DNA of 39,701 nucleotides from a virus. The notes beneath the pieces were generated by a model. The model did not search any database, was not told the origin of the DNA, and saw only the letters and a list, made by a program, of their open reading frames with translations. This document shows positions 21,687-25,374 of this stretch, in pieces. Each line of letters begins with the position of its first letter. Position 1 is the first letter of the stretch. A program made the translations under genes and the position numbers. The stretch is taken from the IMG/VR virus record IMGVR_UViG_3300042691_025472, positions 1 through 39,701 of that record, one strand, 5' to 3'.

Positions 21687-22586
21687 TTAGAAGTAATTCT
21701 TAGGCTTCTTACCACTGCTGGTTTTGATTCCAGTTTTTGCTTTAGAGAAGTCTGCGTCACCATTAGCTTTTACATGACTAGATGGAGCTTGTTTCTTAGC
21801 TTTACCGTCATAATCGCCTTGGTCGCCAAGGTAAGAACCTTCTGAACCTTCAGTATCATCTGGATCATATCCAGTGTCTTGATCACCAAAGTCTGCATCT
21901 CCATTACCCTTTATAAAAGTAGTTGGTTTTGCACGTTGAGCCTTGCCATCATAATTACGTTGACTGCCTGGGTAATTACCTTCTCCACCATTGAAACCAT
22001 ATGATTCGGCTGGAACACCGTCTTCCATTTCATCACCATATTCTTCACCTTCGTCTTCCATTTCATCACCATATTCTTCACCTTCGTCTTCACCACCTGC
22101 AAGAAGATTTGCAAGTTCGCCAAGACTCATGCTTCTTAGTTCAGAAAGAGTAAATGTCTCTTCTTCGCCACTATCCATTTGGTCATCTGCATTGAATACA
22201 TTATCATCCGCAGATGATGCGCCAAAGTTTCCACCATTCATTTCGTCCATCTCACGAAGGATTTGGTCAAAAATGTTGCCGGAACGTTTAAATGAATCAC
22301 CGTATATTGCACCGGGATTAGGTTCTTTTGATTTTTTTTTCATAGATTTTTTAGATTTTTTGATGTTTTTCATTTTACGCTTAACCGCTTCTTCTGCGGT
22401 TTCATCTTCCTCGTCTTCATCGGAATCGTGATCGCCCATAGAATTTCTAATAGCTTTATCTCTAGCTGCTTCCCAACCTTCAATTTTACCATTTTTGTTA
22501 ATGTCCGCCTTTCCTGCACGGTTTTCTTCAATGATAGAGCCTTGAAGATAGTTGTTTTCGTAAATTGATACTAAATCGTTTTCCAT
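21687..22586 (-). CDS. Acidic repeat protein with an EF-hand loop
   Basis: This 299-residue protein has an N-terminal EF-hand-type loop, D28-I-N-K-N-G-K-I-E-G-W-E39, with all six liganding positions acceptable (D, N, N, K backbone, E, E), inside a helix-loop-helix context. A Lys-rich segment (about 70-90; KKSKKSMKKKSK) follows, then a strongly acidic middle with two copies of an EEYGDEMED unit. The C-terminal half holds two related units of about 40 residues: the first contains NYDGKAQRAKP and NGDADFGDQDTG, the second DYDGKAKKQAP and NGDADFSKAKTG. It ends KKPKNYF. It has its own late promoter and terminator. The alternation of basic and acidic blocks could suit a head core or decoration protein, but I do not recognise a family and calcium binding is inferred from one motif. 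Confidence 0.7.
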   Translation of the reverse strand: MENDLVSIYENNYLQGSIIEENRAGKADINKNGKIEGWEAARDKAIRNSMGDHDSDEDEEDETAEEAVKRKMKNIKKSKKSMKKKSKEPNPGAIYGDSFKRSGNIFDQILREMDEMNGGNFGASSADDNVFNADDQMDSGEEETFTLSELRSMSLGELANLLAGGEDEGEEYGDEMEDEGEEYGDEMEDGVPAESYGFNGGEGNYPGSQRNYDGKAQRAKPTTFIKGNGDADFGDQDTGYDPDDTEGSEGSYLGDQGDYDGKAKKQAPSSHVKANGDADFSKAKTGIKTSSGKKPKNYF

Positions 22587-22641: not shown

Positions 22642-25374
22642 ATGGCAGTTAAAAAAATAGACAAATATCTCAACAATAATGAGTCTTTACCAGTTAACAT
22701 CACAATAGATTACACACCTGAACAGGCAATTGAATTTAAAAAGTGTGCAGAAGATATTATATACTTTGCACAAAATTATTTTCATATAGTTAATCTTGAT
22801 ACAGGACGACAAACCATTAAATTGTTTGATGCTCAAAAAGATGCTATTTTAGACATTTTAAAAAATAAAAGAACAATTATTTGTGCAAGTCGTCAGATTG
22901 GTAAACGATTACACGTTGATACTCCTGTTCCGTCTCCGAACGGTTGGACCACAATGGGCGAATTAAAAGACGGCGATATTATTTTTGATTGGAACGGAAA
23001 ACCTACTAAAATAATCAAAGCCCATGATATTCTTGATAATCGAGAATGTTTCAAAATAACATTTAGTAACGGTGAAGAAATAATCGCTGATACCGAACAT
23101 GAGTGGTTTACCCAATCACGAATTGAACGTAGAAAAGGATGTGATGGTTCTGTAAAAACGACAAAACAGTTAGCAGAAACCTTGGTTTACGGTAAAAAAA
23201 TAAAAGAACCAAATCATCGTATTCCGTTTAAACATAAAGTTCAATATAAAGAAAAAGAACTTTCTATAGAACCGTATCTTTTTGGTTATTGGTTAGGAGA
23301 CGGAGAATCTGCTGGTTCTAGAATTATTGTTGGAAAACAGGACGTTGAAGAGGTTTATTTCGAATTGTTGTCTCATATTCGACAAAAAAGATTAATATCT
23401 TTAAAAAATTCTTCATGTTTTAATATTTCCATACTACAAGATGAAAAAGGGAGTTTTAAAAACAAAATAAAAAGTTTAAATGTTTATAAAAATAAACATA
23501 TACCTGACATATATCTTCAGAGTTCTGAACAACAACGTATGTGTTTATTACAAGGACTAATGGATTCAGATGGATATATTAATTCAAAAGGAACAGCTCA
23601 ATTTTATTCTATAAAGAAAAAAATGGCAGAGAATGTTATTGAATTATTAGCCTCATTAGGAATCCAATCTTCTTTAACAACAAAAATTCCAACTATACGC
23701 GGAAAAAAATGTAATAGAGTTTATATAGTAACATTCAAAACCGATCTTCCGATTTTTCGTTTAAAAAGAAAATATAAAAAGATCAACAAAACAAAAATCG
23801 CCCGAAACGATTTTATTTACATCAAAAATATAGAAAGAATAGATTCGGTTCCTACAAGATGTATTACTGTAGATAATCCCGATCAAATGTATCTTGTAGG
23901 AAAAACATTTATTCCCACACATAACACGACACTTATGACTATTGTATGTCTTTGGAATGTTATTTTCAAAAAAGATTATCAAGTAGCTATTCTTGCTAAT
24001 AAAGAAGATCAAGCTAAGGAAATTCTTGAGCGTATTAAACTGGCTTATGAAGAATTACCAAATTGGCTAAAGGCTGGTGTTAGTGAATTTACTAAAGAAA
24101 ATCTGCGTCTTGTAAATGGAAGTAAAATATTTGTATCAACTACATCAGAAAGCGGTATTCGTGGTAAATCTGTTAACCTTCTTTTTGTTGATGAGTTTGC
24201 CCATATCGCATCACAAATTGCAGACCCATTCTTCAAATCAGTGATGCCTACTATTTCATCATCTAAGTCTGCTAAAATTGTTTTAATTTCTACTCCAAAA
24301 GGAGCAGAAGGTAAATTTTATGAGATTTTTCGAGATGCAGAGAAAAAGAAAAATGGTTGGTTTGCAGTTAAAATTCACTATTCACAAGTTCCTGGTAGAG
24401 ATATAGCATGGGTTAAAGAACAACAAGCATCTATTAACTATGATATGGATACATGGAAACAAGAATTTGAAATTGAATTCTTAGAAAATGGAATAGCCGC
24501 TCTTAACCAAGCAATTATTGACCGAATGAAAAGCGAAACATGTCCTGCTGAACTTTCATTTGATGAAGGTGAATATTTTGTTTGGAAACAACCAGAACCT
24601 AATAAAATATACACTATTGGAGTTGACGTTGCAGAAGGTGTTGGACAAGACTTTACAGTGGCAACTGTTCTTGATATTACAGATTTAGATAATATTGAAC
24701 AAACTGCAATATTTGCGTCTAATAAAATACAACCGTGGATTTTTGCTGAAAAATTAAATCAAATAGCACGTTCTTGGGGCAGACCGTTTCTTTGTGTTGA
24801 AAGAAACAAAGAAGGTGGTCAAGTTATTGATGCACTATTAAATGTTCATAATTATGATAATCTTGTAACTTTCTCTATGAAAAATGATAAGCGTAATGTT
24901 TATCAAAGTCCAGGTATTTTCTGTCATCAAAATTCTAAATACACAGGCATTCAAAATATGAAGTATTTTATTGAAACTAAGCAAAGTGTAAAGATTTATG
25001 ATATAAAGACAGTAAGGGAATTTGAAACATTTATTCGTAAAATTAATAAAACTTGGGGTGCTAAAAAAGGGTTTAATGATGATCGTATAATGGCACTTGT
25101 TTGGGCATTAGTATTATTAGAAAAAGATATTGCAGAAAAATATCTTGATATTATAGAGTACGATGAGGCAGGTAAACCTTCAGTAATTCTTGATCCAAAT
25201 CAACACTTGGCAAACTTAAATTTTCATAATTTATTAAATGATAACAAACCTATTCGTAACATTGGAGGTAATAAAGATTTTTCAATATTCTTTAATTATG
25301 AAGAAAAAACTAAAGTAAATTTACCAGAAAAATACGCTAGTATGCTTTATGAGCCTACATGGGAATTCTTATAA
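22642..25374 (+). CDS. 17: Terminase large subunit (gp17-like), interrupted by an intein in Walker A
   Basis: The 910-residue precursor contains a 340-residue intein (residues 89-428), leaving 570 residues of terminase (T4 gp17: 610). Walker A is SRQIGK-TT, split by the intein between K88 and T429. Walker B is LLFVDE at 513-518. The coupling motif LISTPKG is at about 548-554. The nuclease domain shows D662 (IYTIGVDVAEG), E720 (FLCVERN) and the Asp pair in FNDDRIMALVW (about 813-814). The enzyme packages DNA into proheads by ATP-driven translocation and cuts concatemers. Without splicing the ATPase cannot form, so packaging depends on intein removal. The tube and sheath genes follow on the same strand; the small subunit lies 6 kb downstream at 31314. 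Confidence 0.93.
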   Translation: MAVKKIDKYLNNNESLPVNITIDYTPEQAIEFKKCAEDIIYFAQNYFHIVNLDTGRQTIKLFDAQKDAILDILKNKRTIICASRQIGKRLHVDTPVPSPNGWTTMGELKDGDIIFDWNGKPTKIIKAHDILDNRECFKITFSNGEEIIADTEHEWFTQSRIERRKGCDGSVKTTKQLAETLVYGKKIKEPNHRIPFKHKVQYKEKELSIEPYLFGYWLGDGESAGSRIIVGKQDVEEVYFELLSHIRQKRLISLKNSSCFNISILQDEKGSFKNKIKSLNVYKNKHIPDIYLQSSEQQRMCLLQGLMDSDGYINSKGTAQFYSIKKKMAENVIELLASLGIQSSLTTKIPTIRGKKCNRVYIVTFKTDLPIFRLKRKYKKINKTKIARNDFIYIKNIERIDSVPTRCITVDNPDQMYLVGKTFIPTHNTTLMTIVCLWNVIFKKDYQVAILANKEDQAKEILERIKLAYEELPNWLKAGVSEFTKENLRLVNGSKIFVSTTSESGIRGKSVNLLFVDEFAHIASQIADPFFKSVMPTISSSKSAKIVLISTPKGAEGKFYEIFRDAEKKKNGWFAVKIHYSQVPGRDIAWVKEQQASINYDMDTWKQEFEIEFLENGIAALNQAIIDRMKSETCPAELSFDEGEYFVWKQPEPNKIYTIGVDVAEGVGQDFTVATVLDITDLDNIEQTAIFASNKIQPWIFAEKLNQIARSWGRPFLCVERNKEGGQVIDALLNVHNYDNLVTFSMKNDKRNVYQSPGIFCHQNSKYTGIQNMKYFIETKQSVKIYDIKTVREFETFIRKINKTWGAKKGFNDDRIMALVWALVLLEKDIAEKYLDIIEYDEAGKPSVILDPNQHLANLNFHNLLNDNKPIRNIGGNKDFSIFFNYEEKTKVNLPEKYASMLYEPTWEFL
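22906..23925 (+). mobile_element. Intein with LAGLIDADG endonuclease, probable class 3 (W-C-T) type
   Basis: Residues 89-428 of the terminase precursor. The N-terminal splicing block is RLHVDTPVPSPNGWTTMGEL, with Arg where a Cys, Ser or Ala nucleophile is usual. Block B is GEEIIADTEHEW, with H153 and W155. Block F starts at RCITVDNPD (C407), and block G is FIPTHN (T426, N428), with Thr as the +1 residue. W155, C407 and T426 match the W-C-T triad that defines class 3 inteins (as in the mycobacteriophage Bethlehem DnaB intein), which use the block F Cys instead of residue 1. The endonuclease motifs are LFGYWLGDG (213-221) and LLQGLMDSDG (302-311). The acidic Asp/Glu positions are intact, so homing activity looks possible. 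Confidence 0.88.

Follow-up and report, generated by a model that had tools for sequence, protein, structure and literature searches.

The large terminase gene of the window, a 39.7-kb IMG/VR virus record, almost certainly carries a class 3 intein that is full-length and includes a LAGLIDADG homing endonuclease. It interrupts a T4 gp17-type terminase within the Walker A loop, between Lys and Ser/Thr. The sequence is new and its kind is known: the intein is well formed and ordinary for its class, lies at a recognised hot spot, and has one uncommon residue. The intein adds a well-supported class 3 example in a T4-type packaging motor, and empty alleles that are 95% identical make its junctions and patchy presence unusually clear. 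It may also be of use as a new intein or as a test case for the effect of residue 1 on class 3 splicing, and it leaves the knowledge of inteins and DNA packaging unchanged.

The split terminase gene and its intein

The terminase is encoded by a 910-residue open reading frame (22642-25374, plus strand), which is split by an in-frame insert of 340 amino acids after SRQIGK within the Walker A loop; the joined exteins amount to 570 amino acids (Table 1). The outer parts of the frame matched Terminase_6N (PF03237, 42.2 bits, cut-off 22) and Terminase_6C (PF17289, 40.6 bits, cut-off 22.6) in Pfam, thereby providing both the Walker A/B ATPase and the nuclease of a T4 gp17-type protein. Among the structures in the PDB, solved T4 gp17 was matched by the C-terminal part of the terminase (3ezk, 4.3e-38; 3cpe, E = 7.2e-37). 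Other genes in the window encode a tail sheath, two tail tube-type proteins, a major head protein, a head maturation protease, a sheath stabiliser and a primase. The virus is a virus of bacteria and, judged from these other genes, fits a distant T4-like myovirus. The product of a minus-strand gene upstream of the terminase (21687-22586) is acidic and contains short internal repeats (EGEEYGDEMED). No second copy of the same allele was seen, and the window is a single metagenome-derived record.

Table 1. Positions in the window of the exteins, the intein and its motifs; residues are numbered along the precursor unless intein residues are specified.
Feature	Position	Strand	Basis
N-extein, residues 1-88, ending ...ASRQIGK (first part of Walker A)	22642..22905	+	Open reading frame; same ending in empty alleles
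Assigned class 3 intein, residues 89-428, 340 aa, Arg1...His-Asn	22906..23925	+	Residues, relatives, empty alleles, structures, model
Block B DTEHEWF: His153 (B:10) and Trp155 (B:12, WCT triad)	23089..23109	+	His in 181/181 and Trp in 179/181 relatives
First LAGLIDADG motif LFGYWLGDG, intein residues 125-133	23278..23304	+	Alignment; Asp132 in 176/181 relatives
Second LAGLIDADG motif CLLQGLMDSDG, intein residues 213-223	23542..23574	+	Alignment; Pfam LAGLIDADG_3 / Hom_end
Cys407, block F:4, predicted first nucleophile (WCT triad)	23860..23862	+	Cys in 181/181 relatives
Block G end Thr426-His427-Asn428 (Thr = G:5, WCT triad; Asn predicted to cyclise)	23917..23925	+	Residues; relatives
C-extein, starting Thr429(+1)-Thr-Leu-Met; remaining ATPase and RNase H-like nuclease	23926..25374	+	Pfam Terminase_6N, Terminase_6C; 3cpe

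The residues that define a class 3 intein were all located. Residue 1 is Arg (R89, codon CGA) and offers no Cys, Ser or Thr nucleophile; W155 at B:12 aligns with class 3 inteins, C407 at F:4 is invariant among the relatives, and T426 occupies G:5, with H153 at B:10, N428 as the terminal Asn and T429 as the +1 nucleophile. The triad and its accompanying residues stand exactly where the first-pass annotation had placed them. In intein numbering, these positions are H65 (H153), W67 (W155), C319 (C407), T338 (T426), H339 (H427) and N340 (N428). Both LAGLIDADG motifs (LFGYWLGDG and LLQGLMDSDG) are intact, as had been supposed: their acidic residues D132 and D222 (intein numbering) are conserved, and the Pfam models LAGLIDADG_3 (PF14528) and Hom_end (PF05204) scored above their cut-offs in the intein. 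The generic Intein_splicing model of Pfam reached 15.8 bits against a cut-off of 35.8; given the strong matches to class 3 structures, this low score was not taken as evidence against the intein.

Junctions and empty alleles

Searching with the C-extein yielded terminases that were 74-99% identical, seven of which span the site without an insert (L113, L114, L115, L116, L117, L119 and L120). All seven read in a single frame through ...RTIICASRQIGK/STLMTIVCLWN or a sequence close to it (here and below, a slash marks a junction or insertion site), and near relatives without the insert have a 95% identical terminase in which SRQIGK/STLMTIV is unbroken. Because the empty alleles are continuous across the site, the junctions are K88/R89 and N428/T429 and the insertion is clean. 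The position inside the Walker A motif, and the start at an Arg in place of a usual nucleophile, had both been read from the window by itself and are now fixed by these alleles. Five of the seven were aligned base by base with the joined flanks of the window and proved equal in length, with no gaps; in L113 and L114, 94% of the bases match with zero gaps. Thus, the insert comprises exactly 1020 bases, and terminase sequence was neither lost nor duplicated.

The +1 residue is Ser in all seven empty alleles and Thr in both the window and the intein-bearing relative L002. Just past the junction, bases 0, 2 and 5 of the window depart from those of the empty alleles (Thr versus Ser at +1); apart from these, similarity nearby is about the same as elsewhere. 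Thr at +1 in intein carriers could be derived from co-conversion or selection. Another relative, L033, carries an intein yet keeps Ser at +1. In a tree of C-exteins, in which the long-branch terminases L017, L066 and L020 were left uninterpreted, the window grouped with the empty L113 and L114 (support 99/95) and was the only filled member of a clade of six (100/98). Judged from these sequences, the patchy presence of the intein appears as expected for a mobile element and homing, and either gain in the window or loss in the others would be compatible with it.

Class assignment and the residue at position 1

Class 3 inteins are taken to form a monophyletic clade, and the definition of the class was reportedly broadened by Tori and Perler in 2011. 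The splicing halves of the window intein (residues 2/4-74 and 304-340) were compared with all solved structures using phmmer, and the best solved relatives were the class 3 DnaB1 inteins of Mycobacterium chimaera (6rix, 1e-26; 6riy, 4.9e-26) and M. smegmatis (6bs8, 8e-26). By the same phmmer measure, gp41-1, a class 1 intein, was far weaker (0.012), with its WCT-grafted variant 6riz at 6.6e-4. Across a 14-intein alignment from diverse phages, H65, W67, C319, H339 and N340 were invariant, and Thr338 was swapped only once, to Ser. An AlphaFold2 model built from a 78-row alignment was confident (mean pLDDT 95.5, pTM 0.93). Foldseek matched its whole chain to PI-SceI and other endonuclease-bearing inteins (best E 6e-20), and its splicing domain to class 3 DnaB inteins (TM 0.85-0.91, normalised to the target). 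The class that had been proposed is thus borne out by the relatives, the empty alleles, the solved structures and the model, as are the junctions, the WCT triad, the endonuclease motifs and the Walker A position.

The survey of relatives covered 181 full-length inteins, drawn from phage records, bacterial genomes and viral contigs. They were found with patterns placed in the endonuclease motifs, outside the splicing blocks, although the matches were ranked by overall similarity. Cys at F:4, His at B:10 and the terminal Asn were present in all 181 relatives, Trp at B:12 in 179, and Thr at G:5 also in 179 (Ser in 2). The insertion lay between GK and Ser/Thr in 163 of the 181; the earlier impression of an unusual case is therefore unsupported, this site and this class both being common. 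At residue 1, Ala was present in 154 relatives, whereas Met, Pro, Leu, Asp, Gly, Gln, Cys, Glu and Ser were found in a few. Arg occurred in three others with intact signatures, located in other P-loop proteins at VASEGAGK/RAT (L045 and L047, the stretches of which are identical and count as one) and VAAEGVGK/RAA (L049). The idea that Arg1 is unique to the window was consequently rejected. In this comparison of sequences, residue 1 is variable, as expected where it takes no part in chemistry, and Arg appears uncommon but tolerated. The literature excerpts consulted mention no class 3 intein that starts with Arg. It is highly improbable that Arg1 is functional, in the sense that its place next to the N-scissile bond would change the speed of class 3 splicing or its dependence on conditions and so set the moment at which active terminase appears.

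Two other readings of the insert turn on the same residues. Most inteins belong to class 1, yet reading the insert as class 1 or class 2, with its start wrongly placed, is scarcely credible, as the empty alleles force the start at R89, where no Cys, Ser or Thr is found and residues 2-3 are Leu-His. Class 2 inteins moreover have Ala1, a block F Asp and a penultimate Ser (PMC4031507), whereas the window intein has Cys at F:4 and a penultimate His. Both classes were rejected on the basis of residue 1, F:4, the penultimate residue and the fixed junctions. The presence of Arg rather than the common Ala at residue 1 might also be taken as a sign of decay, that is, of a class 3 intein by descent which has lost splicing, the terminase allele being dead or complemented by a co-infecting phage. 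One decayed relative is known: the Arth_1007 intein of Arthrobacter FB24 fails to splice and has neither Cys at F:4 nor His at B:10 (PMC3196547). In the window, however, no catalytic residue is missing, both endonuclease motifs are preserved, the frame stays open over its 910 codons and the model is confident. Arg1 also recurs in three further class 3 inteins whose signatures are intact; decay is thus very unlikely.

Predicted splicing and comparison with known inteins

The chemistry and WCT signature of class 3 inteins have been described (PMC4031507, PMC3196547, PMC7891396), and we infer the mechanism from this established pathway. With Arg at residue 1 and the junction fixed by the empty alleles, only the block F Cys is left as a candidate first nucleophile. 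The thiol of Cys407 would attack the K88-R89 peptide bond, aided by His153 and with Trp155 and Thr426 as class-specific partners, and the N-extein would move from Cys407 to the hydroxyl of Thr429. Cyclisation of Asn428 with His427 would release the intein, and an O-to-N shift would yield SRQIGKTTLMTIV with the ATP-binding loop intact, the spliced product SRQIGKTT thereby restoring it. Once released, the intein is predicted to act on co-infecting relatives, cutting their uninterrupted terminase gene so that it is itself copied in.

Splicing should be needed to obtain a working ATP site: a normal one is not expected in the precursor, so splicing would have to precede packaging. The claim of the first-pass annotation that splicing gates packaging is true only trivially, in that the precursor has an interrupted P-loop; any use of splicing for regulation is conjectural. 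Conditional protein splicing, with the intein as a regulated switch that holds back DNA packaging until a signal arrives, could draw on the broken Walker A loop, as an unspliced precursor should not bind ATP normally, and on the DnaB inteins of M. smegmatis, whose splicing reportedly responds to stress (PMC6195587). We nevertheless regard such a switch as unlikely: the sequence gives no pointer to regulation, close relatives of the same phage are without the intein, and unrelated P-loop proteins commonly carry one at this site, which fits the choice of a site that is hard to lose. The intein looks like a mobile element lodged where deletion is costly rather than a proven packaging switch.

Several relatives show other arrangements. 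In L043 (2237-3895), a related terminase has an intein at the same P-loop site that ends in CTSN (Ser for the penultimate His), and its frame then enters the apparent start of a second, class 1-like intein (ARGQSIN/CVHGDGKITL). Relatives of the endonuclease part in L007-L014 lie in stretches that resemble inserts, have Cys aligned at residue 1 and terminate in SMN; these are perhaps class 1 inteins, which suggests that the endonuclease domain is common to intein classes. The intein of L052 ends in SHN.

The best-matching solved relatives, the Mycobacterium DnaB1 class 3 inteins (6bs8, 6rix/6riy), share the WCT triad, His B:10 and the His-Asn end, and also lie at the P-loop, after GK and before Ser/Thr, as at GVGK/STLGL in M. 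smegmatis DnaB-1 (PMC5222942). They differ in their helicase host, in Ser at +1 and, for the M. chimaera intein, in Ala at residue 1; the solved chains have 139-146 amino acids and are without an endonuclease domain, whereas the window intein has one. In mycobacteriophages, the K/T terminase site (TerL1-a) has been called a 'classic' P-loop site (PMC5050341), although these TerL inteins have a Terminase_1 host, as against the T4-type Terminase_6 of the distant T4-like myovirus. In T4-type gp17, a remark that the Rak2 and K64-1 terminases contain hint and LAGLIDADG domains (PMC5259590) was the only literature found on class 3 inteins. Among cultured phages, gp17 of Escherichia phage ECD7 (Straboviridae, Krischvirus) has the same site and the class 3 signature (SRQLGK/ALD...PTHN/TTA), but its intein is 32% identical to that of the window and begins with Ala. 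The same arrangement is found in Klebsiella phages fENko-Kae01 and RCIP0023, Synechococcus phage B23 and many viral contigs. The closest inteins found are 57-59% identical. The closest is that of L002 (IMG/VR contig 3300032266_000862, 2998-4056; 57% identity), which shares the terminase type, the site and the neighbouring genes with the window intein, and differs from it in Leu at residue 1 and Ser for Thr at G:5 (PSHN).
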